In this document: in pieces, positions 3,824-20,877 of the stretch
How the letters are laid out: the number at the start of each line of letters is the position of its first letter
Position numbering within the stretch: position 1 is the stretch's first letter
Virus record (IMG/VR): IMGVR_UViG_3300044630_000396
Location: 1 to 24,456 of that record
DNA: 24,456 nt
DNA from: a virus
Strand: one strand, 5' to 3'
Notes under the pieces: generated by a model
Database searches by the model: none
What the model was told of the DNA's origin: nothing
What the model saw: the letters and a program-made list of their open reading frames with translations, nothing else
Translations under genes and position numbers: made by a program

Positions 3824-5344
3824 TCACAGAACAGCAGTACCGAGTACGCCATAGATAGGGTCACCAAGGGTCAATGTAAATTTCTCTACTACTCTGTGTG
3901 TAATTGAATACCCAAGAGGTCTTGCTGGTTCAACAGCGGCTAATACTTCTGTGGAATCAGTAAACTCGGAAAAAGTTAAACCCGTCGTACCTAATACGAT
4001 TGTTCCTGTTTCCGCCAGCGCAAATGCTGTACCACTGTTGGCTTCTCCAGCATCAACAAAAAACAGTGCAACGCCAGCAATTTCTGATGGAGAAACTGTG
4101 TCAAAGTCGTCGGCACGACTCCAAGTGCTAGCGTTAACAACGTAGACACCATTTTCCGTTTCGTCTGATTGGTCTTTTACAAGAACTCGGTCGCTAGCGA
4201 CTAGGGATATGCCATCAATGGTTTGTGTGCCAGAGAGCGTAATATTGGCCGTAGTCGCTACTCTCACGTTTGTCCTAATGTCAAGACCTGGGGTTTGACT
4301 ACCAACCGTAGTGATTCTTATAGCCCAAGGGTTGTTATCGTGTCTTTGGCTAATAATTACAGATTTTGCTCCAGTAAGAACAAATTCAGCAGCCTCTCGT
4401 ATTGCGGACTGGGTTCCAGCACCACGACCATAGCCAGCAGGGTAAAGTTGCCAAGTCTTAAAATCTTCCAGATTATTGTTATCTATAATCCCAGTATTGT
4501 CTAGGTATATTTGATTTTTAATTTTATTTCCGGAAAACTGCATTAGCCATTCACTGTTTTCGTTTCTTACATGTTGGTAATCAACGAGCCTGCTTCTGCT
4601 TTCGTACGTGTTCAAAGCGATATTGGATGGTATTTCTCTTCTGTCATATCTGAACCATTCGCTGTATAGGTTCATGGTGTCAGATATTGCATCAGTTAAA
4701 ACTTCCACAAATCTAAAGAATGGGTATGTTGGGTCTTCTTCTCTGCTGTCGTAACTTTGATAGAAATCAGGTATAAAAGGGCGCATGCTTTGTACGACTG
4801 GAGAGTTTGCCCACGCGATGTCGTTAACTAAGTTTGGTGTTGATATTCGGACGTTTGAAGTGTTGTGGTTTGAAATAGTCAAAACAACTTTGTAATTAGT
4901 GCTCGCTGGAGCATTGTTGGCAATTGTTATCTGATTTGACCTTACCGCCCCCCATGTGCCGCCCTGGATTGTTCGTGTATTTCCAGCGTTCACAACTCCG
5001 TTTGCATCATAAAGAGCAGCGTTTATGGTGATGCTTTCGTCTGCTGAATATGCAACACATGAAAATACAAACACACCCCCTCTGTCTGCTGTTTCAAAAA
5101 CATTGTTGACATTCAGTGTCATAACCACGGGCGCTATACGGCCTGTAGACATTTCAATAACATAATGAGAAGCCCAATAGAAATCGTTTCCTGTTACATG
5201 CAGTGATGCGGTACCAATAGGGTCGGTGCTAACAACCGTCCAGTCGTGGTTTGCGACTACGTAACTTAAAGGTATTGTGCGCTGTGTTTCAACGCTATAA
5301 GTTCTTAGCGCATTATCGTCCGAAAGTCTTTGTAGGGTTTTCAT
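3824..5344 (-). CDS. Baseplate wedge protein, P2 gpI-like, with N-terminal beta domain and module B insert
   Basis: A 506-residue protein with an ATG start that overlaps the gp47/J-like gene by four bases and ends in a double stop (TGATGA). In contractile phages the gene after J is gpI, the wedge protein linking the baseplate to fibres. Residues about 25-185 look like a jelly-roll or carbohydrate-binding type beta domain. Residues about 186-240 (FIPDFYQSYD...LTDAISDTMNLYSEWFRYD) match the usual gpI opening. Residues 240-350 continue with the gpI-like core (TWQLYPAGYG...GTQSAIREAAEF). Residues 353-463 are module B, shared with the fibre at 1776-3071. A short tail (SITHRVVEKFTLTLGDPIYG) closes the protein. 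The extra domains make it longer than a plain gpI (under 250 residues in P2). Confidence 0.75.
   Translation of the reverse strand: MKTLQRLSDDNALRTYSVETQRTIPLSYVVANHDWTVVSTDPIGTASLHVTGNDFYWASHYVIEMSTGRIAPVVMTLNVNNVFETADRGGVFVFSCVAYSADESITINAALYDANGVVNAGNTRTIQGGTWGAVRSNQITIANNAPASTNYKVVLTISNHNTSNVRISTPNLVNDIAWANSPVVQSMRPFIPDFYQSYDSREEDPTYPFFRFVEVLTDAISDTMNLYSEWFRYDRREIPSNIALNTYESRSRLVDYQHVRNENSEWLMQFSGNKIKNQIYLDNTGIIDNNNLEDFKTWQLYPAGYGRGAGTQSAIREAAEFVLTGAKSVIISQRHDNNPWAIRITTVGSQTPGLDIRTNVRVATTANITLSGTQTIDGISLVASDRVLVKDQSDETENGVYVVNASTWSRADDFDTVSPSEIAGVALFFVDAGEANSGTAFALAETGTIVLGTTGLTFSEFTDSTEVLAAVEPARPLGYSITHRVVEKFTLTLGDPIYGVLGTAVL
3956..4288 (-). repeat. Module B, copy in the gpI-like wedge protein (protein-level repeat)
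   Basis: Residues 353-463 carry RVLVKDQSDETENGVYVVNA and flanking strands that line up with residues 146-258 of the fibre at 1776-3071. Here the module sits near the C-terminus of a wedge protein, whereas in the fibre it is in the N-terminal half. Confidence 0.85.
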
Positions 5345-6555
5345 TCATCTACCGACACCAATGTAACGGCTGTGTTTGCAACAGTCAAAGACGGCAAAGA
5401 ACCTTTCTTTGAAAAAAGAACGTTTCCACTACCATCGCTTGTTCCACCAGAACCAGGAGTAACGGTTAAAGACTGAACATACAAAACTCCAGGAACCGAA
5501 GATGCTATTGAATAAAATTCTGAAAGTTTTATTCCATCAGTAAATCTGTAATTTATTGGGGAGAAGTAATTTGTTAAAACTGTTTCAATATTTTCTTGAA
5601 CTACAGTACTTTCGTAAGAAGAAGAATACGCCACTTCAATGCTCACAGCAAGAGTGACTAGGTTTACATCACGAACTTCAAGTTCAAGACCAGCAACAGT
5701 TCTGTTTTGAATATCAATCAAAATATCTGATTTTTGGTCAATAGTTAGAGTGCTGTTAATACCGTATACAAATACTGTTACATATCCAGGTTCGTCTGCG
5801 TCTGCCCACTCAAGACCGCTTGCTGAGTTGGTTAAGTCATAGGCCTTGCACCTGCTCACCGTTGAAGCAAAAGTAGACAATACATGACCATCAATTTGAG
5901 AAGCGCGCGCAAAAGAAGAAGATAGTGAACCAAGAAACTGAACAGCCCTATTCAAAAACTCTTCAGTTGTTTCAGGACTTGTTCCGTTGCTTACGAAATC
6001 ATCAACGGTTGCACTAACTATGCTTGAAGTAGGTGTATCAATCTCTAGGACGGTACCTACTGGAATAGGTAGGGTTGCGCCCACATCAATTGCTCGCGCT
6101 TCTACGGTAACTGTGGGTAGTGCTTGCGTCCCCGTGTAAACAACCGCTGCGATTGTTCCTTCTTCTATTGTCTCAAAGTAGATAGACCTTTGTTCTCCAA
6201 GGAATTCATAGTCGTATCTAACGATTGTTCCCTGTGGGACGATTGTTCCGTCGTAGTCAATGCAGGTGAATTCAACATCAATAACCGCCTGAGAGCCGTC
6301 GTTTATTTCAACACCCATCATCCCAACGAGGCCAGCCATGAGTCTGTCTGGAAGCCTATTGATTGCTGAAATATTAAGAGCGGAGATGTAGGAAACAGCC
6401 TGAAGTATTGCGTCCTCTGGTGTTCCCTGTCTCGGCTGGAATTCAGGTAACGCTATTTTTGCATACTCAATTGAGTCTAAGTAAACAGCAGTTGGAGAAA
6501 CATCAAAGGGGACTAAGTAAACATATTCTGAAAAATCTATTGGCATACCAATCAC
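5341..6555 (-). CDS. Baseplate wedge protein, gp47/J-like
   Basis: A 404-residue protein that starts with GTG and overlaps the stop of the gp25-like gene in GTGA. Family landmarks include the N-terminal PEDAILQAVSYISALNISAINRL helix region at about 45-68, and a central beta domain with DYDGTIVPQGTIV and GATLPIPVGT. A later region (ETTEEFLNRAVQFLGSLSSS) corresponds to the usual baseplate J core, with a C-terminal SVPGVLYVQSLTVTPG. In T4 and P2, this protein polymerises around the hub to form the baseplate ring and triggers sheath contraction. The gp25-J-gpI order on the same strand supports the call strongly. Confidence 0.92.
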   Translation of the reverse strand: MIGMPIDFSEYVYLVPFDVSPTAVYLDSIEYAKIALPEFQPRQGTPEDAILQAVSYISALNISAINRLPDRLMAGLVGMMGVEINDGSQAVIDVEFTCIDYDGTIVPQGTIVRYDYEFLGEQRSIYFETIEEGTIAAVVYTGTQALPTVTVEARAIDVGATLPIPVGTVLEIDTPTSSIVSATVDDFVSNGTSPETTEEFLNRAVQFLGSLSSSFARASQIDGHVLSTFASTVSRCKAYDLTNSASGLEWADADEPGYVTVFVYGINSTLTIDQKSDILIDIQNRTVAGLELEVRDVNLVTLAVSIEVAYSSSYESTVVQENIETVLTNYFSPINYRFTDGIKLSEFYSIASSVPGVLYVQSLTVTPGSGGTSDGSGNVLFSKKGSLPSLTVANTAVTLVSVDE

Positions 6556-6872
6556 CCACGCAACTTAAAGGAAAATTCTACACTAAGCCCACCATTTGAA
6601 GTAAAGGACGGATTTATTCCCGTTATTTCTACTTCCGGAACGTATCTTGCTGCATTAATTATAAAGTCTTCTGGTTCAATCGGAGTAAAAGATGGGTCAA
6701 GTACTCCAAATTCTGGAGTTATTGGGTGTTCTCCTGGTTCGGTAAGTAAAGAAATTGTCAAGATTTGTTTGTAAAAATCAAAAGTTCCTTCTTCTAGCCG
6801 CTTGAGTCCGGTGTCGTTAAATTTAATTGGGAAGGAAAGACAGTCCATCTCTGTATTATCCCATACCATCAT
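6552..6872 (-). CDS. Baseplate wedge protein, T4 gp25-like
   Basis: A 106-residue protein matching the gp25/gpW family: LSFPIKF near the start, a central YKQILTISLLTEPGEHP (the R/E-T-PGE core of the family, here LLTEPGE) and FGVLDPSF, then VEITGINPSF and a C-terminal V.F.F strand. gp25 binds gp47/J and nucleates sheath assembly. The ATG at 6872 overlaps the upstream gene by 17 bases and lacks a clear ribosome binding site. The internal ATG at 6848 (giving MDCLSFPIKF) fits the family's usual N-terminus and lies just after the upstream stop, so it may be the real start. Confidence 0.9.
   Translation of the reverse strand: MMVWDNTEMDCLSFPIKFNDTGLKRLEEGTFDFYKQILTISLLTEPGEHPITPEFGVLDPSFTPIEPEDFIINAARYVPEVEITGINPSFTSNGGLSVEFSFKLRG

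Positions 6873-8323: not shown

Positions 8324-8324
<1 letters not shown>
7215..8324 (-). CDS. Putative adhesin: Ig-like domain followed by a long glycine-rich domain
   Basis: A 369-residue protein with an ATG start in a TAATG junction. Residues about 14-99 form a putative Ig/cadherin-like domain of the He_PIG type ([30 protein letters not shown]). Residues 115-140 ([13 protein letters not shown]...[13 protein letters not shown]) begin a glycine-rich region that fills the rest and ends [12 protein letters not shown]. That opening and closing pair is typical of the glycine-rich domains on phage tail tips. In T-even-like phages such as S16, glycine-rich tip adhesins fold as polyglycine helices and bind host receptors, which is a structural parallel and not a claimed homology. 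The likely role is host recognition at the baseplate or fibre tip. Confidence 0.8.
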
Positions 8325-9622
<1,298 letters not shown>

Positions 9623-9633
<11 letters not shown>

Positions 9634-11905
9634 AAACTCCTATGTATGGGACCACTGCTGGTCCATATGTAATTAGATTAAGCCATGATTCTTGAATCGT
9701 GCTTAGGTTTTGGGCATATGTTATTGCATCGGCCGTGTTGCCGCTAGCAAATTTTCCTAAATGTTTCCCTGTAGTTAGGTAATACTGCCGAGCATCTGCG
9801 TCTTTGTATATTCTTCCGTTAATAATGGGCGTGTAAACAACTTCATTAACTCCGTCATTAAAAGAAGAACTTAATAAAGTACTGATAGAGCCATCCGTGT
9901 TCTTAATCAACGGTCTATCGGTTAGCGTAATATTTCCAGCCACAAGTGGAAGTGGACCAGACGACGGATAAAGAGTAGCCGGAAGTCCTGCTGTTGTTAT
10001 CTGCAATTCGGTTGGATATATGGGAACGTCAACTACCCACGGCTTAGCAGTTCTGTTTAATATGCTTTCTGCTGACTTTGGAAATCTATGTTTAATTACT
10101 TCTTTTTGCACTAAAATCAATATTTCTATATACTTTTTGGCTTTTGCTTCAGTAAGGAATACCCCATGATGCAAGTCTTCCGATTCGTATTTTGTTTCTG
10201 CTTCTGCCGTTGTTAACAGGGTTGGAACGTTATTGCACCAAAGACGTTCCGTTACAACAAATACGCCAGCAATAGAAAATGTCCACGCAGCATAAGTTCC
10301 GGAACTACCAATTGTATCGCACGTCATTGTCAGAGTCGTTCCTGAGACAGTAACGATACCTTCCATAAATCTTGCTGAGTTTGCTGTGTTTGTGGCACGG
10401 ACTCTTTGACCGGTTGCAAACTTGCTACCAGCAGTGATTATGAAAACTTTTGAACCAGTGCCGATTGCTCGTGATGTTGTTGAAGTAACCCCCGCATAGC
10501 CAGTACCTGTAGTTCCGGCAATCCCCTCTATGACTGTTGGATATATATGAGGGTTCAATGTTGGACCCAACAGGGCTCCATATTCGTATTCAAGACTTAT
10601 TGGCCTGTTGTAGCAGTCAATATTTCCACCAACTAAAATATCTTCAGGAACCAAACCTGAACCCTTAAAAGAAAGCAGTTCCGCTTTCGTGTTTGGATAA
10701 GTCCTGAGCCTTCTAGAGTTTGGAATTTTTGAAATATTCTGAGGGCCGACTGGATTTATGGTTGTTCCAACTCCAATAAATTGAGGAGTTGTTTCATTGA
10801 AAATCGGACGACCAACCGTAGTTGCGCCGAGTCTTGGTGAAGGCTGAAAATAATTACTGTTAAAAATTTTACCTATTGGCAGTTGAGGTATCTTCGGTTC
10901 TTTTCCGTTCACTTTTAATCGTTCTGGTGTTCTGAATTCAATGGAAACAGGGTCTGTTATTTGCTCCCCAAAAGTAACGCTGGTGATTAAATAGAAACTA
11001 CTCATAGTAGGAACGTTATTTATTCTTATGGTCATACCTGGCCTGAGTTGAACGCCGTTGTCTCGTGCAACTAGTAGGTTTCCGGAACCTTCCAATGGGT
11101 CGTTCCCAGAATCTCGCATTGATGGAAGGCTCAGTACTTCAAACTTTCTATTGTTTGATTTATTTATTGGCGCATATTCCATTGGAATAAAAAATTTATC
11201 TGGGTATTTTTCTGGAAGTTTATTTTTTCCAATTATCGGCTTGCCATTTTTTAATTTTATTTTACCTTCAATTTTTTCTGTTCCCCATTTATACATGAGC
11301 CATTGATGTGTTCCAAAGTACAAAGTTCCATCAGCAACAAATAAAACATACTGAGAATTGTCGGCAATACTTTTCATTACGGTCCACACAGAGTCCTGTT
11401 GACCATCTCCTGAGTTTTTAGAAGCGCTTTTTATTCTTGCGCTTTTTTCACCAACAAAACGAAGTCCGTATTTATTTGCTGCTTTCTGAACAAAAGTGTA
11501 ACCAGAACCACCAATAGAACTTGGTTTTTTGTCTCTTTTCATCTGCTGAACTGCTTTGGGCATTGCTTCAACCGACCACTGAGGGGAAGCGCTTCCTTGC
11601 TGCTGAACGCTAACAGAACTAATTTCGTAAAGATGTCTAATTCTGCTTATGATTGGCTCACCAGTTCCAGACGAAGAGTTGGCAACCTTTATTTTTGATA
11701 CTGAAGTCGTTTCATAAACAACGTCACGACCAATGTTGAAATAGTTATTGGAAGCCATTTCAAAACCAGGGTCAATCACAACGAAAGACAATTGGCTAGC
11801 CATATCCATTGTGTAGTTAATATTCAGCGTCAATAAGTTTGACGCCACGGTGGCCATTTGTTTTTCTGTTAAATCGCCTATTTGTAGTGATGTTGATGTG
11901 AACAT
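9623..11905 (-). CDS. Tail hub protein (gpD/gp27-like) with module A insert
   Basis: A 760-residue protein with an ATG start 11 bases after the upstream gene's stop. The N-terminal half matches phage late-control/hub proteins: LTLNINYTMDMASQLSFVVIDPGFEM at about 25-50, a YTFVQKAANKYGLRFVGE region at about 137-155, and SIADNSQYVLFVADGTLYFG at about 183-202 (LysM-like and hub strands). The phrase MTIRINNVPTMSSFYLITSVTF around residue 300 closes the hub core. Residues 469-549 are module A. The C-terminus (about 550-760) is a further region unlike the usual hub, ending in SWLNLITYGP. The hub trimer caps the tube and carries the spike, which fits its place between the adaptor and spike genes. It is long compared with gpD (387 residues in P2). 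Confidence 0.8.
10259..10501 (-). repeat. Module A, copy in the hub protein
   Basis: Residues 469-549 pair with residues 118-199 of the collagen-like fibre at 8324-9283. Shared stretches include GQRVRA, MEG.VTV and DTIG.SGTY. Upstream of it is ordinary hub sequence. Downstream is a C-terminal region not obviously part of the hub core. Confidence 0.88.
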
Positions 11906-11916
11906 TTTTGCCTAAA

Positions 11917-13488
11917 TTAGGATATTTTTTCAGGAATGGCAAGTGCTGGTTCAAAAGTAAATCCAGTAGTAAGAAGGTTGTTTTGGGGGTCTACTGGTTT
12001 GCAGGGTTTTGGTTTGCATGTTTTGGGAACTGGATTTTTTGGGGTCAACGGAGGCAAAGCGATGATATCTCTAGCAATAATTGGGTATTCATTTAAAGTA
12101 ATTGAAACTTCTGCTGCTGCCATTTTGCGGCCATTTGGCGTCATTCTTGTTGCGGTAATTGACATGTCTGCGATGACCCACTGTAGGTTGCGAGTGTTGT
12201 TTACATACGGAAACCTAAAAGATGTAGAGGTTAATGTATTCAAGTTGTGAAGAGTAATTGGATATGGAGAACCACCCATTGCTCTCAAAATTTCTATTTG
12301 TTCATCAATAGAAACATCAAGACCATCATTTACTACTGTTGATTTGACTGTTGCCTGTCCTGCATCAATAGTGTCGGTTCTTTTTCCAGCAACTAAAAAC
12401 CTAAAACTACACTTCGTCAGGTTATATTTAGACCAATCAACCATTGCATAGTTGCCACTTCTCTCAACCTCATTCCATACCGAAGAAAGTTGACTAAATT
12501 CAAAACTATTTGGAACTATGTTGAAAACGTGAGTTCTTATTATTTTTTCACGAGTATTGTTAACTGAATTGAAATCTGTAATAGTCTGCTGCATATAGGG
12601 AGCGTTTGCGTTTTCTGAACCTATTCTCCTATCTGGCAAATAATTTAAAACAGCAGTTGATTGACCAGTAGGAGGGTTTTGTCTTCCTCTCGTATTTGGG
12701 TTTGGACTTCTTCCACCACTTGCCGAACTTGGGTTGCTTCCGCCTCCAGGGCTAGCAAAAGATTTTTGTGCTTCTTCTATTCTTCTGAAATCTGCTGCTG
12801 AGTCAAGTACTGAACGGCCTGCTCCAAATCCGCTATTTCCATTTGCATCTGTTCTGTTGATTTGCGCAGGAGTTGCACTAGCACCAAACCCACTATTTCC
12901 GTTCGCGTCTGTTCTGCCTACTGTTAAAGCGCCGCTTCTTCCGTTGGATTCGTTGTACAAATGATTGTACATTTCTTCAATTTCCCTAAAAGACTTAGTT
13001 AATACACTCACTAATTTAGAGTCGGAACCTGTTGATATAGCCGTAGTTGATTCAGCGGATGTTACTGGTTCGCCTTTTATGAATTTATAATCAGAATCGG
13101 TGATTCCAATAAATATGAAAGACCCCCAATTCTTGACACTGTACTGATTTCCTTTGTTGAGTCTTTTTATTACCACAGCGCTTGAGTAGGCAATTTTCTT
13201 ACCATTAGCCGATACCGCTGATGGCTCATTGCCAGACTTTCCCATGTTTACAAGAACCTTATAAACGGTTGTTGCTTTTAGTGTTTCTACGTTTACAAGA
13301 GCCCAAACTGGTTCATCGTTTAATGTTCTGTATGAAGTACATACATATGTATTTCCATTTATTGGGTCGTCTGCGTATTTTCCCTGAACCTGATTGTCAA
13401 ATGCTTTTTTTCCTTTTTCCCATAGGAGAACGCCACTGGTAGAGTAAAAGCGAATGGGGTTTTGATAAGAGTTTCCTTCTTTTGACAT
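11917..13488 (-). CDS. Baseplate/tail-tip adaptor protein between tape measure and hub
   Basis: A 523-residue protein with an ATG start in a TAATG junction with the tape measure stop, preceded by GGAGAGAAG. Residues 1-135 are a beta-rich N-terminal domain. Residues 136-290 are low-complexity Ser/Gly/Asn/Pro sequence with a perfect 12-residue repeat. Residues about 318-480 (THVFNIVPNSFEFSQLSSVW, YPITLHNLNTLTSTSFRFPY, MSITATRMTPNGRKMAAAEVSITLNEY) resemble the tube-fold proteins found between tape measure and hub in contractile phages (LysM/XkdP-like adaptors), though no LysM motif is evident. The C-terminal tail has a KTCKPKPCKPV motif with two cysteines. Likely joins the tube end to the hub. 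The exact family is uncertain. Confidence 0.65.
   Translation of the reverse strand: MSKEGNSYQNPIRFYSTSGVLLWEKGKKAFDNQVQGKYADDPINGNTYVCTSYRTLNDEPVWALVNVETLKATTVYKVLVNMGKSGNEPSAVSANGKKIAYSSAVVIKRLNKGNQYSVKNWGSFIFIGITDSDYKFIKGEPVTSAESTTAISTGSDSKLVSVLTKSFREIEEMYNHLYNESNGRSGALTVGRTDANGNSGFGASATPAQINRTDANGNSGFGAGRSVLDSAADFRRIEEAQKSFASPGGGSNPSSASGGRSPNPNTRGRQNPPTGQSTAVLNYLPDRRIGSENANAPYMQQTITDFNSVNNTREKIIRTHVFNIVPNSFEFSQLSSVWNEVERSGNYAMVDWSKYNLTKCSFRFLVAGKRTDTIDAGQATVKSTVVNDGLDVSIDEQIEILRAMGGSPYPITLHNLNTLTSTSFRFPYVNNTRNLQWVIADMSITATRMTPNGRKMAAAEVSITLNEYPIIARDIIALPPLTPKNPVPKTCKPKPCKPVDPQNNLLTTGFTFEPALAIPEKIS
12820..12915 (-). repeat. Two-copy 12-residue repeat in the adaptor protein linker
   Basis: Residues 192-203 and 212-223 are both RTDANGNSGFGA, spaced 20 residues apart. 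The DNA copies differ at several third positions, so the duplication is not very recent or is held by selection on the protein. Confidence 0.9.
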
Positions 13489-16400
13489 TATCTTCTCTCC
13501 GAGTTAGAACGTTCTGTATCCCTAACTCTTTGCATGACAATTTCTGCTATCTCATTAGCAGAAGCATTTTGGCTTCCAGTTACATAGAAATTATACTCAT
13601 TGCCTTTTCCGCCAGAACCAACAGTCATTGGTTGCTGGAGACTTCTGGCAACTGGCATCATGTTGTCACCAATTGCCCCAGAACCAGGAACAACATGAAG
13701 ATGTCTTGCTTTATTGACTCCGTGGAATTCAGCAAAACCGCCAGTTGACTTTACGAGCGATTGGTACTGTCCAAGGTTTTGTCCAACAAGGTCATATGCT
13801 CTTCCGGTTACATGGTCAGAGTTCATTGAACCAAGACCATAGTTTCTGTAACCGGAAGTAACGGTCCTCTTGCCAGTTAATGCGCTATCCATTGAGGCGT
13901 GGCGACCCATTGTCTGAGACAGGCGACTAGACGTTGTGTCGCCAAATGCTTGTCCACGGGGGGTTTTGGTATCACCGTGTTTTGCCCACCAAGAAGGAGC
14001 CGTTGCGTACCAAGCCGGTGTTGCCTTGTCTGTTTCTTCAAAAAAGATTTTCATTTGGTCAATAAGTGCCGTTGTCTTCTCTGCTATTGCTTCAGGAAGT
14101 TTGGTTAAGTCAGTAGTTTCCGTTGGCGTTTTTGTGGCGACCAGCCCCTCCAGGCCCAACATTTTAAGTAGTGCCGTTGTGGCGTTTCCACCGGATGCTT
14201 CAACCATTCTCATTCCAGCCGCGCCAGAAGGTAAAGCAAAACCACTTTCTTGCGCTTTCTGTAATGCCACCTGTTGCTCCGGCGTCATATTCTTAAACCG
14301 TTTTGTGAATTCTGCTGTATTAATTGATTTGCCACCCTGGAGAAGTTTGGCGTTTAAGTCAGCACCGAGAGTGTTTCCTAGGTCTGTGCTTGTTTTGTCA
14401 AAATACTCTTTAAGAGCAGGATTGTTGGCAAAATCAATTTGCCCTTCCATTCCTTCAAGAGTTCTCCCCTTAGCAAACGCGCCACCCTGTTCGTAGTCTT
14501 TGCGTAATTGTGCAAATGAACTGACTCCCTCACCAAAATAAGCGGTGTAGTTTTTGACTTGGTCTTCTAGATATGTGTTGATATCTGTTTCTTTTAGTTT
14601 TCCACCACTTGCTTGTTCTCTGAGTGACTCTGCTCTTTCGTCAATTATTTCTGGAGCACGTGCCGCAGCAGTATATTTTTGGAAAATTGACGTGTTGTCT
14701 ATTACTAGGTTTGTTGTTGCTGCTCGCATTTGCTGAGCAGTTTTAACAGTTGTTAGACCAAGTTCTTTGAGAACTTCGTTAAAGTCCTTGGTGCTGTCCA
14801 TGAGATTGACGCCCATTGTTTTAGCAAGGGCTATGTTTTCTTGGTCTGATTTACCTGTGATTTTTGCTAAAGCATCAAGACGACTGTTGTAGTTTTTCTG
14901 AAGTGGAGCCATTGCTGCTTCGTTGACTTCCATATCTTTGCGCATGGTCCTTAAAGCCTCCCCAGGCTTCTTCATCATGTCTTTCTGCTGTTCCGCAGAA
15001 TATGTAAGACCATACTTTGATTGGTTTCTAAATATGTTGCTCAGTTTTGATTCTTGTTTTTGTCTATCAACATCTTTTTTATTATTAGTTCCATATCCAA
15101 GAGGGTTTAAAACCCTGTTGTCCAAAAGACTCTTGCCACCAAGTTTGGAAACAATACCAGCAGTGACGTTTCCTATTATGTCCATGTTTTGAGTTGCACC
15201 GCCAACAAGTTTCCTAATCAACTTGGGCATTCTTTTTCCGGTTGCGCTTTCAAACGCTAAACCAAGTTGCCCACCAGTGGCACCACGATTCAAGACGTCT
15301 GGAACTATTCCAGCGTAGTTCTTTCTATTTAGTGGAACACCAGCCGTGTCCTCGGAAAGTCTTTTACTATATTTTGCTGCAGTTCCAAAAGCGTCTCTGG
15401 TTGCGCTTCTGCCAACCCCAGTTTCTTTGCGCACGGCATCAAGGGTAAAAGAAAGTGAGTTATTAATAATGCTCTGTACTGCTTCACCAGCAGCCTTTTT
15501 TGATGCTTTAACTTCTAGTTTTTTCTTATTGAGAGTTCCCATAATTGCGCCAGAAACAGAACCAATAAGACCACCAATAATTGCACCTGCCGCCATTCCG
15601 AGAGGACCGCCCATTGTGCCAATCAGTGCACCGGCAGCAGCACCTCCAGCAAGACCACTAACCGCACCGCCTGTTGCTGTTCTTGATTTAAATGCAGTTC
15701 CAAGACCCGCTACAGCAACACCTGCAAGTGGGTTAACTGAACCTACGGCACCACCTAAAGCAAGCGCACCCTGTGCCTCTTCTGGTGCAAATTGTGACAT
15801 TGCACCAAGGGCAAGACCAACGCCCATTTTTGCGGTAGCCGAACCTTGGAACTTTTCCATTCTTTTATAGCCCTTGGACTGTCTGTCTCCAGAACGAGCA
15901 GCACGTTGCGCCGCTGTTCTTCTTGCTAGTTTTGCTCTTGTGGTTAATTCACCTTTTTTGTTAGTTCGGTTCATTTTATTGCTTAGTGCTTTTTCACCCT
16001 TGGGGTCTTCGGCATCCGCAGTAAAAGTGTTGTATGAAGCCTGTCTTGCAAGAGTTGAAAGCATGGCCAATTTAGGATTTTTAAATTTTGAAGCGGCAAC
16101 TCTGTAATCACGCGAGTTGTAAATTATGTTTCCGCTTGGAGATGTTTGTTGTGAACTGTATGTTCCGGAAGGAACTGCCATCCTTCCACCAAGTGGAGAC
16201 GATGGACCAACAGGACCAGTGAATCCCACTCTTCCTAGAGCGCTGGGACCTAGAGCATTTCCGAAAGCAGGACGACCGCCAGGACCCATCGGACCACCGG
16301 GTCCACCTGTTCTTGAAGAAAAACCACCACCAGGATAAACAGGAGCACCAGTTCCGTAGTACGCTCCAGTTGTTCCTAACGAACCACCACCGGTTACTCC

Positions 16401-18932: not shown

Positions 18933-19388
18933 TTATACAACGCCTTGAACAGCGAACGTAAGGGCAAACGTTGCTGGAGCACCAGATGATGAGTCACCGT
19001 CTGGCTCGGTCATTCCCACAAGCAAGCAATTTGCATAGGTGCGGTCAAGACCCTGAACGACGATGTCGCAGTCGTAGGTTGTTACGGTGATGTCGTAGTA
19101 CACGCGACCAATGAGTGGTCTCAGTGTCTTAATTTTGGCTGCAATACCTGTTTGGGTATCTGAAGCCACTCTGTCGTCATCGTAGTGAGCGGTAAGCGTG
19201 ATGTCACCAATCTCTGCGGGTGCGCAAAGAACTTCAGGGAACTTTGCTCCACCTGGGTAGATTTTCTCAACGGACGCCGTAATTTCGCCACCCGAAACCT
19301 GCGCAAATCTGAAACCTGTCCATTTTGGTGACGTAGCGCCAACTGGGGCGATTTCTGCGAGGATTTGCCTCTGTGATACTTTAGCCAT
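18933..19388 (-). CDS. Tail tube protein
   Basis: A 151-residue protein with an ATG start and an AGGAG site 6 bases upstream. It directly follows the sheath gene with a 13-base gap, as tube genes do in contractile phages. Landmarks are FRFAQVSGGEITASVEKIYP at about 27-46, the ITLTAHYDDDR strand at about 64-74, VYYDITVTTYDCDIVVQG at about 96-113 and the C-terminal FALTFAVQGVV strand, consistent with the gp19/gpFII tube fold. Hexameric rings of this protein would stack to form the inner tail tube through which DNA passes. Confidence 0.85.
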   Translation of the reverse strand: MAKVSQRQILAEIAPVGATSPKWTGFRFAQVSGGEITASVEKIYPGGAKFPEVLCAPAEIGDITLTAHYDDDRVASDTQTGIAAKIKTLRPLIGRVYYDITVTTYDCDIVVQGLDRTYANCLLVGMTEPDGDSSSGAPATFALTFAVQGVV

Positions 19389-19401: not shown

Positions 19402-20877
19402 TTATACTGTAACAGTTGATGTTAGATTTGATTTGACAATTGTGACTTCAATCTTGTCACCGATTGGCGAAACTCGTACACCAAGTTGCGCTTTCACTGT
19501 TCCTCCTGCAAGTTGTGCAGTAGTGTTGATTGAAGTGTCGCACTTGACCGAGTAGCCAGGGTCAATAAGTTTTCCGTTGGCGTCGTATGCTTCGTACAGT
19601 GCACCGATGGACTTCATTCTTTCACAGATTCCTGTCAGTCTTCCCTCAATTGAGGAGAACAGACCGCCGCGACCATCAACAACAGCGAAGATTAGGTCTT
19701 CCATTGAGGCGTTAGCCTCAGCGACAACGCTGTTTACAGTGTCTTGAGTCGTGATGAATCTAAAGTTTTCCGTGTCTAGTGAAAGAGAACGCGCTCCGTA
19801 CACTCTTACCGTGTTGGCAATAATTCTGATTGCGTTTACGTAGTCGGCATCAAGAGAGTCTCCAAGAGTTCTGTTGACATCAACTTCAACGCCAGTAACA
19901 AAACGAGCGGCAGAAATAAGGCCAGCGGCTGGCTGATGAGGGCCAGTCTGGTTGTGTGCAAGTGCACGCTTTCCAGCAGCGTAACCATCTGGCGGAATCA
20001 GCCTTGTTACACCAGCAACTTCTGTTGGGACGTAAACCCAAGGATAGTAGAGAGCGGCATGCTCAGAACCTGTTTCAGCAGCAAGTGATGCCGCCGCTGC
20101 AGTGATTCCAGTTGCTGCTTCTGCGAGGTGGCATAGTGCGATTCTGTTGTATGTATTTGCGTGAGCAATAAGGTCTGCGTTGATTGCGTGGGTTTCTGGG
20201 CAAGAAACTGCACCAGGTCCAAAAGAATCGTTGAACAACTCAAGAGCAGCAGAAAAAGCAGTGAACGAAGTGTCAACAGTGTTATCTGTTCTGTCGTCAG
20301 AACCAACAGTAAATGTTCCAGCACCAAATGCTGTTGCTGCACTGACTTCTGGCATTCCGTCTGTCAACTTTGTTGCTGACATGTACTTTGAAGCGATTGC
20401 ACTTCCGTTAATTGCGGTAACGAGTGCGGTTGAGGTCGTCTTGAGTCCTGTTGCGTAAACAAGTTCATCGTTGTAGTACAACTTAATATTCTTGCTTGCT
20501 CCAGAAGCGACAACTTCAATGTCCATGTCATGTGCCCAGTCGCCAGGACCGTTTGCTACAAGGCGGATACAGTCAGCACCGCCAGCACCGCCCACGTTGA
20601 GCAGGTTGGTTGCTGTCGTGGCTGCAGGGCCAACAACTCTTGCTACATAGCACTGTGTGCCACCCTCTTCAAAGAAAGTTTGGACTGTTGGGTGAAGGTA
20701 TGCATATGTTACATATCCACCAAATGTCTCTTCAAACTCTGCGAGGCTTGTTACGAGAACTGCTTCATCGGAAGGACCACGCTGAGCAAGTCCAACAAAG
20801 AACGCCTGCGACGAAGCGCGCACCGTCGTACTTGTAGGACCTGTTCTAACTGCTGTAGTAATTGTTACGCCTGGCAT
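19402..20877 (-). CDS. Tail sheath protein
   Basis: A 491-residue protein with an ATG start and a GGAGAGAGG site. It opens MPGVTITTAVRTGP and continues with FFVGLAQRGPSDEAVLVTS and FFEEGGTQCYVARVVG, the classic N-terminal signature of phage tail sheath proteins. Further landmarks are YPWVYVP in the middle domain and a C-terminal domain with NTVRVYGARSLS, FRFITTQDTVNSVVAEANAS, GICERMKSIGALYEAYDANG and an ending VRVSPIGDKIEVTIV. The sheath polymerises around the tube and contracts to drive it through the host envelope. This gene shows that the phage has a contractile tail. Confidence 0.96.
   Translation of the reverse strand: MPGVTITTAVRTGPTSTTVRASSQAFFVGLAQRGPSDEAVLVTSLAEFEETFGGYVTYAYLHPTVQTFFEEGGTQCYVARVVGPAATTATNLLNVGGAGGADCIRLVANGPGDWAHDMDIEVVASGASKNIKLYYNDELVYATGLKTTSTALVTAINGSAIASKYMSATKLTDGMPEVSAATAFGAGTFTVGSDDRTDNTVDTSFTAFSAALELFNDSFGPGAVSCPETHAINADLIAHANTYNRIALCHLAEAATGITAAAASLAAETGSEHAALYYPWVYVPTEVAGVTRLIPPDGYAAGKRALAHNQTGPHQPAAGLISAARFVTGVEVDVNRTLGDSLDADYVNAIRIIANTVRVYGARSLSLDTENFRFITTQDTVNSVVAEANASMEDLIFAVVDGRGGLFSSIEGRLTGICERMKSIGALYEAYDANGKLIDPGYSVKCDTSINTTAQLAGGTVKAQLGVRVSPIGDKIEVTIVKSNLTSTVTV

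Follow-up and report, generated by a model that had tools for sequence, protein, structure and literature searches.

A diverged M15-like domain, probably a peptidase, near the C-terminus of the tape measure protein in uncultured contractile-tailed phages

The tail gene cluster and the end of the tape measure protein

The stretch of DNA considered here (the window) is the entire 24,456-base IMG/VR record, which is probably a genome fragment. It encodes a contractile tail cluster in the order sheath, tube, chaperone-like ORF, tape measure, 523-residue protein, hub-like protein, spike-like protein, gp25-like wedge and baseplate J (Table 1). The tape measure protein is recognised as a long gene between the tail chaperone and the hub/spike genes with an alpha-helical C-terminal tail; complete homologues beside related sheaths measure 1194-1836 residues from stop to stop, and A0A6J5RBP0, a structural match to the domain model described below, carries the name tape measure protein. 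The 523-residue protein that adjoins it gives in Pfam a weak GpU match alone (E 0.1), and the hub-like protein matches no Pfam family at E≤1, with no hydrolase recognised in it; the 760 residues of the latter (9623-11905) compare with 375 to 788 for the relatives' hub-like proteins examined alongside. Fibre-like proteins with collagen-type GXY repeats are encoded at 2-1537 and 8324-9283, the second of which starts with an Mtd_N domain.

An earlier note on this DNA had marked positions 13695-13820 as a peptidoglycan peptidase motif built into the tape measure protein. That span corresponds exactly to Ser1437 through His1478, with SDHVTGRAYD(L) and RHLH lying near the C-terminus, and the three proposed ligands are found where the note had placed them: His1439 (codon 13812-13814), Asp1446 (13791-13793) and His1478 (13695-13697). 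The protein has 10 histidines in all and a single HxH, and the arrangement HxxxxxxD followed by HxH occurs in it once. When 51 unique related tape measure proteins were shuffled at constant composition, this loose pattern arose in 3 of 5100 shuffles and a strict version, which adds the Ser and the residue before the His, in none of 5100. The His/Asp pattern is no chance event.

These residues belong to a compact domain of ~86 residues directly upstream of a C-terminal helix, which is predicted to span 1524-1545 and which, by analogy with the diffocin particle (PMC11329794), would be a probable anchor of the protein to the hub or spike. The C-terminal tail resembles that of Gordonia phage GMA6 (E 3). 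GD-type tags (GDT, GDS, GDN, GDM) flank the domain on either side in 90 of 97 unique cases, the upstream GD(S/T) tag being present in all 97; in the window they lie at 13662-13670 and 13935-13943. Elsewhere in the same tape measure proteins GD(S/T) occurs 106 times, over 252,202 residues. The tags could be linker, fold or processing sites.

Table 1. Tail genes of the window and features within its tape measure protein (coordinates are those of the window)
Feature	Position	Strand	Basis or remark
Baseplate J protein	5341..6555	-	Pfam Baseplate_J, E 1.1e-13
gp25-like baseplate wedge protein	6552..6872	-	PHROG baseplate protein, E 4.6e-10
Short spike-like protein, 116 aa	9283..9633	-	weak PHROG baseplate assembly match, E 0.1
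Hub-like baseplate protein, 760 aa	9623..11905	-	same position as the isolates' hub
Tail protein, 523 aa, adjoining the tape measure gene	11917..13488	-	syntenic with the isolates' LysM-like protein
Tape measure protein, 1546 aa	13488..18128	-	longest ORF; between tail assembly chaperone-like ORF and baseplate genes
C-terminal helix, residues 1524-1546	13491..13559	-	predicted
M15-like (hedgehog/DD-peptidase type) domain, residues 1396-1481	13686..13943	-	22- and 66-sequence alignments, AlphaFold2, Foldseek, VIA-align
RHLH, residues 1475-1478	13695..13706	-	putative third zinc ligand His1478; strand in both models
GGFAEFHG, residues 1463-1470	13719..13742	-	candidate catalytic acid Glu1467 and invariant His1469; beta strand in both models
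SDHVTGRAYD, residues 1437-1446	13791..13820	-	putative zinc ligands His1439 and Asp1446
TSGYR, residues 1424-1428	13845..13859	-	equivalent of the M15 SGYR motif; hhalign to PF08291 members
Tail tube protein	18933..19388	-	synteny with annotated tube proteins
Tail sheath protein (contractile tail)	19402..20877	-	PHROG tail sheath, E 3.1e-43

Relation to the M15 families

The two M15 profiles proposed in the earlier note gave different answers. PF08291 (Peptidase_M15_3) matches a 190-residue C-terminal piece with E 0.0063 and 17.1 bits, below its curated cut-off of 23.2, while PF02557 gives no match at E≤1. The whole 1546-residue protein gives no PF08291 match in Pfam. Among the relatives, PF08291 matches 17 of 22 at E≤1 (best 3.9e-4), and in the long relative records it matches once in 9 of 10, always in the tape measure frame, with the cut-off exceeded in none of the 10. 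Because scores stay below the curated cut-off, the domain is not filed here as a member of PF08291. A comparison by hhalign with 10 genuine PF08291 proteins nevertheless aligns 37 columns (probability 82.8%, E 9.3e-6), pairing TSGYR with SGYR and SDHxxGxAxD with SxHxxGxAxD; the HLH end falls outside this local alignment.

Several other routes to an assignment were tried. M23, VanY (PF02557) and NlpC/P60 were rejected as identities for the domain, there being no match at E≤1; an NCBIfam scan returned no peptidase, the PDB searched by sequence returned no meaningful match, and the full tape measure protein was uninformative against Pfam and PHROGs. Against 50,697 phage records, tblastn with the full protein found no match, the domain alone found only the GMA6 C-terminal tail (E 3), and the domains of two diverged relatives found none.

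Three sequence features of the M15/hedgehog-DD-peptidase superfamily are in place. The SxHxxGxAxD motif with its putative His and Asp ligands is invariant; the third ligand of the C-terminal xxH/HxH strand corresponds to His1478, which lies in a predicted strand and is kept in 64 of 65 complete proteins; and the upstream Arg of SGYR corresponds to Arg1428, which, counted along the alignment, matches Arg138 of the Streptomyces albus G zinc DD-peptidase (1lbu). On sequence and model together, the domain is a diverged M15-like one and would probably act as an M15 peptidase does.

Conservation

Searching by pattern with the last 167 residues yielded 41 loci, 21 of which were aligned with the window. 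In all 22 sequences His1439, Asp1446, Glu1467, His1469, Arg1475, His1476 and His1478 are invariant. Because these 41 loci had been found partly through the motifs themselves, a motif-independent sample was built from loci fetched by the sheath only. It comprised 160 loci, of which 65 have a complete long ORF after the sheath, the remaining 95 being excluded where a contig end cuts the gene or no such ORF is in reach. The motif is present in 64 of these 65 complete tape measure proteins (50 of 51 unique sequences). The single exception, locus L300, is without the domain and keeps the C-terminal tail, which points to a modular domain with its own boundary; the same locus counts against the peptidase reading. 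The three ORFs that follow the tape measure gene of L300 show no hydrolase, and one of them has collagen repeats.

A wider collection of 99 unique domains was made with a pattern requiring SDH, the Asp, an acid at 1467 and HxH. Residues outside those demands, Arg1428, Gly1442, Ala1444 and Arg1475, are each present in 99/99, and at 1467, where the pattern accepted either acid, 96 domains have Glu and 3 have Asp. In 18/18 pairs, identity is higher within the domain (82-87 codons; 56-100%) than across the remainder of the protein (26-88%), two of the pairs showing 91% vs 57% and 62% vs 30%, and the dN/dS of the domain is ≤0.1 in all five pairs having dS below 1. Judged by these substitutions, purifying selection on the domain is strong. 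A scan of IMG/VR for GGFAEFH or NxxRHLHVVP shows at least 351 stretches that encode related domains.

Predicted fold

Two AlphaFold2 models were made, the first of 167 residues from 22 sequences (mean pLDDT 58) and the second of 106 residues from 66 sequences (mean pLDDT 74, pTM 0.67), in which most core blocks reach pLDDT 84-92 except the loop before the first ligand. Searched against the PDB with Foldseek, hedgehog N-domains occupy ranks 1-35 for model 1 and 1-32 for model 2, in the latter case with probability 0.91-1.00 and E 0.012-0.073; in neither model does E fall below 0.011. VIA-align places the M15A DD-peptidase 1lbu at rank 1 for both models (Z 7.8, 98 aligned, rmsd 3.9; Z 7.5, 88 aligned, rmsd 3.7), followed by hedgehogs near 7 and then VanXYg, LysECD7, Ply500, LysB4, ChiX, VldE and VanY. 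The best structural matches are thus all of the M15/hedgehog fold, at a moderate level (Z 7.5-7.8, Foldseek E about 0.01). In VIA-align, models that lack any clear counterpart commonly have a best Z of 7-8, and type II secretion domains, which are unrelated, reach Z 5.3-6.1 here, so that the fold match taken alone is moderate evidence. In a viral structure library, the two strong matches are uncultured Caudovirales phage proteins, A0A6J5RBP0 being one; the next are viral peptidases, several of them named M15A, and the tape measure protein of Gordonia phage Dorito stands at rank 11 with probability 0.93.

The middling Z scores and the sub-threshold profile score would also fit a structural domain of the tail tip whose histidines merely resemble the M15 motif. 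We consider this very unlikely, given that profile, fold search and conservation agree at exactly the M15 positions and that the shuffles speak against a chance pattern. The M15-type zinc peptidase proposed in the earlier note is supported by profile, conservation, predicted fold and position, with metal binding and catalysis as predictions.

A candidate catalytic acid

In Sonic hedgehog the zinc ligands are His141, Asp148 and His183; Glu177 marks the position of the base in related peptidases, and His135 and His181 are stacked next to the site (PMC8052667). In the window's domain His1476 is the counterpart of His181, so that the HxH end of the domain resembles the His181/His183 pair, and there is no acid six residues before His1478, at the spacing of Glu177. 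The sole conserved acid on the preceding strand is that at 1467, eleven residues before His1478. Four of the true PF08291 members have a strand glutamate 9 or 13 residues before the histidine. Glu/Asp1467 is therefore likely to be the catalytic base, and is the best candidate for it.

The missing counterpart of Glu177 (PMC8052667) would also fit a pseudo-enzyme, a hedgehog-like domain that keeps zinc and fold and, rather than cutting, binds peptidoglycan or stabilises the tip; the nearest Foldseek structures are indeed hedgehogs, whose peptidase role is disputed. Yet the acid at 1467 persists even where Glu has been replaced by Asp (3/99), Arg1428, His1469 and His1476 are likewise invariant, purifying selection is strong, and phage Cantare holds a real peptidase family in the same slot (see below). 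We regard a pseudo-enzyme as unlikely, though not negligibly so.

Wall hydrolases elsewhere in the tail, and the host

The earlier note had held that the spike is short and has no lysozyme domain, and that the tape measure domain could be the main wall-cutting activity carried by the tail. The spike-like protein, at 116 residues, indeed matches no Pfam family at E≤1, and Pfam recognises no hydrolase family in the other tail proteins of the window that were scanned, namely the hub, 523-residue protein, spike, baseplate J, sheath and fibre-like proteins. NlpC/P60, M23, CHAP and Amidase_2 give no match in the five longest relative records, and a single SLT match lies far from the tail genes of one of them. 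Since the scanned tail proteins and relative records show no other, the tape measure domain is the sole recognised, if putative, tail-borne wall hydrolase of the clade. The SLT domain lies in a 185-residue ORF (G001:22440-22751) that is a possible endolysin of the clade.

The comparison extended to the tape measure proteins of 11 isolates with contractile tails (GMA6, Cantare, Gray, DalanDe, DrYang, BarretLemon, Abba, ArV1, Jawnski, LuckySocke and Hirko), ten by Pfam and that of DalanDe by pattern only. None of the 11 shows the M15-like domain, and nine show no hydrolase domain. The tape measure protein of Brevibacterium phage Cantare carries Peptidase_M23 (E 3.4e-18) immediately before its C-terminal tail, and that of LuckySocke carries NlpC/P60 (E 4.8e-23) in mid-protein. 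Of the three hubs tested, two (GMA6 and Gray) have NlpC/P60 and the third (ArV1) has CHAP. In the annotation of these isolates, Streptomyces phage LuckySocke gp92 (L339:15691-18855), the NlpC/P60 protein in the tape measure place, is labelled hypothetical, and GMA6 Orf40 (L315:25054-25377), in the place of the gp25-like wedge, is labelled putative lysozyme, which we take to be probably a misnomer inherited from T4 gp25.

The M15 families that the domain resembles act on peptidoglycan, and contractile relatives carry wall hydrolase families in tape measure or hub proteins; both observations weigh against a maturation protease that would cut tail proteins, be it its own tape measure protein or a baseplate partner. 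Such a role would fit the GD-type tags on either side of the domain (90/97 unique cases) and the frequent processing of tape measure proteins (PMC1796659), and we judge it highly improbable.

Among bacteria, WhiB is described as confined to actinobacteria (PMC6802176). WhiB genes are found in 3 of 10 long relative records, all possibly fragments, with two copies in each of the two longest; in a control, 1 of 14 genomes gave a match, a Corynebacterium one. Among 100 isolate records, sheath relatives come from phages of Arthrobacter (72), Gordonia (14), Streptomyces (6) and Brevibacterium (2) and from cyanobacterial phages (6). Because of the WhiB genes and these sheath relatives, the hosts are, on genomic grounds, most likely actinobacteria. 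Of genome contigs scanned, 2 loci matched, both from freshwater MAG bins, one with the label Bacteroidetes and the other proteobacterium; given the same indications of an actinobacterial host, these are read as probably mis-binned phage contigs. The lake names of the two contigs suggest a freshwater habitat. A 132-kb relative (G001) has tryptophan halogenase and glycosyltransferase genes at L064-L070.

Comparison with known systems

That tape measure proteins may carry murein hydrolases, as the earlier note stated, is established. Motif 3 of the TM4 tape measure protein is reported to be active, dispensable for viability and an aid to infection of stationary cells (PMC1796659), and a review counts tape measure proteins among the usual seats of peptidoglycan hydrolases (PMC6116005). 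TM4 is thus alike in placing a peptidoglycan hydrolase within the tape measure protein, and differs in its motif and in its long non-contractile tail.

M15-type domains, too, are already known from tape measure proteins of Microbacterium and Gordonia phages. Gp82 of Microbacterium phage Zooman, a tape measure protein, passes the PF08291 cut-off with 37.5 bits, and its domain, used as a query, matches 251 records, 89 of which are from Microbacterium and 44 from Gordonia phages; 33 of 60 among the matches listed fall in genes annotated as tape measure protein. Zooman and many Microbacterium, Curtobacterium and Gordonia phages share with the window an M15-type domain near the tape measure C-terminus, with SGYR and SxHxxGxAxD. 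They differ in that the PF08291 score of Zooman is canonical, no sheath gene is annotated in the Zooman stretch examined, and the BLASTP alignment of its domain to that of the window spans 43 residues only. The window domain shares with 1lbu and PF08291 the Arg, His and Asp positions and the fold, but has a shorter Arg-His loop, its acid elsewhere and a score below the Pfam cut-off, and lies within a tail protein. The hedgehog N-domain and the bacterial hedgehogs (an M15A subgroup) are closest in fold by Foldseek, and the HxH end resembles theirs (PMC8052667), but a Glu at the Glu177 spacing is lacking here.

Among contractile systems, the closest parallel is Cantare, with a related sheath, the same gene order and a peptidase right before the same kind of C-terminal tail, its domain being M23, not M15. 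The diffocin particle, a contractile one directed against a Gram-positive host, bears its hydrolase CD1368, a lytic transglycosylase with NlpC/P60, on the hub (PMC11329794). Diffocin and Bendigovirus resemble the window in combining contraction, Gram-positive or actinobacterial hosts and a tail-borne wall hydrolase, but place the enzyme on the hub, not in the tape measure protein, as NlpC/P60 in the Bendigovirus case. The claim that an M15 type inside a contractile tail is less usual therefore holds in part: it accords with 0/11 contractile isolates, yet 64/65 of the uncultured clade have the domain, isolated actinophages often have M15 domains in their tape measure proteins, and other hydrolases occur in contractile ones (M23 in Cantare, NlpC/P60 in LuckySocke).

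In the titles and abstract openings of the literature searched, no description of a contractile-tail tape measure protein bearing an M15 domain was recognised. The mycobacteriophage tail 'D-Ala-D-Ala carboxypeptidases' are presumably of the serine type. They are described in PMC5831693, and the passages of PMC10194240 on enterococcal tape measure proteins name lytic transglycosylases only. Other candidate papers were set aside: "M15" is an E. coli allele in PMC4205034 and a separate gene in PMC10305713, the M15C enzyme of PMC11370258 has no tie to a tape measure protein in its relevant passages, PMC6318371, PMC5513430 and PMC9671378 concern endolysins, and PMC6116114 merely cites TM4.

Proposed mechanism

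The domain is most likely a virion-carried peptidoglycan peptidase that would be released with the tape measure protein, and the explanation that we favour overall, with fair though not full confidence, is of an M15-like zinc peptidase that cuts the wall when the tape measure is ejected. The last ~150 residues would comprise the peptidase domain and then the helix anchoring it to the hub or spike. In diffocin the tube contains a trimeric tape measure, ~25 A wide, whose C-termini are anchored on the spike (PMC11329794); by that analogy, the tape measure of these phages would fill the tail tube and end at its tip with the C-terminus, which would put the domain, lying just before the C-terminal helix, at the tip as well, where exposure or refolding on ejection is likely. 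On sheath contraction and departure of the spike, the tape measure would be pushed out, and the domain, now folding or becoming exposed, would bind zinc through His1439, Asp1446 and His1478 and, with Glu/Asp1467 as candidate base, cut stem peptides or cross-bridges of actinobacterial peptidoglycan. A local hole in the wall would then open for the tube and the DNA. An advantage in slow-growing cells may follow. A consideration against this mechanism is that a folded trimer may be too wide for the tube lumen.

What appears to be new, from sequence and models, is a diverged M15-like subfamily that is nearly fixed in contractile tails, in the slot that holds M23 in Cantare. One may go further, and suppose a separate, hitherto undescribed M15/hedgehog subfamily confined to contractile-actinophage tape measure proteins, in which the base has moved to the preceding strand (Glu/Asp1467), the enzyme being latent in the tube and becoming active by refolding and zinc uptake after ejection, with the slot before the anchor serving as a general cargo bay in which wall-cutting enzymes (M15-like, M23 or none) are exchanged. 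This larger proposal is speculative, and we offer it as an idea that could well be wrong.

For a large group of uncultured contractile actinophages, with at least 351 IMG/VR stretches encoding the domain, the analysis assigns a likely role to the C-terminal end of their largest tail gene, which profile annotation at the usual cut-offs misses. It would provide a case of a wall-cutting enzyme that travels on the tape measure within the tube, in contrast to the hub-borne enzymes of contractile relatives, and it raises the question of how a narrow tube may store a metalloenzyme and then switch its activity on.
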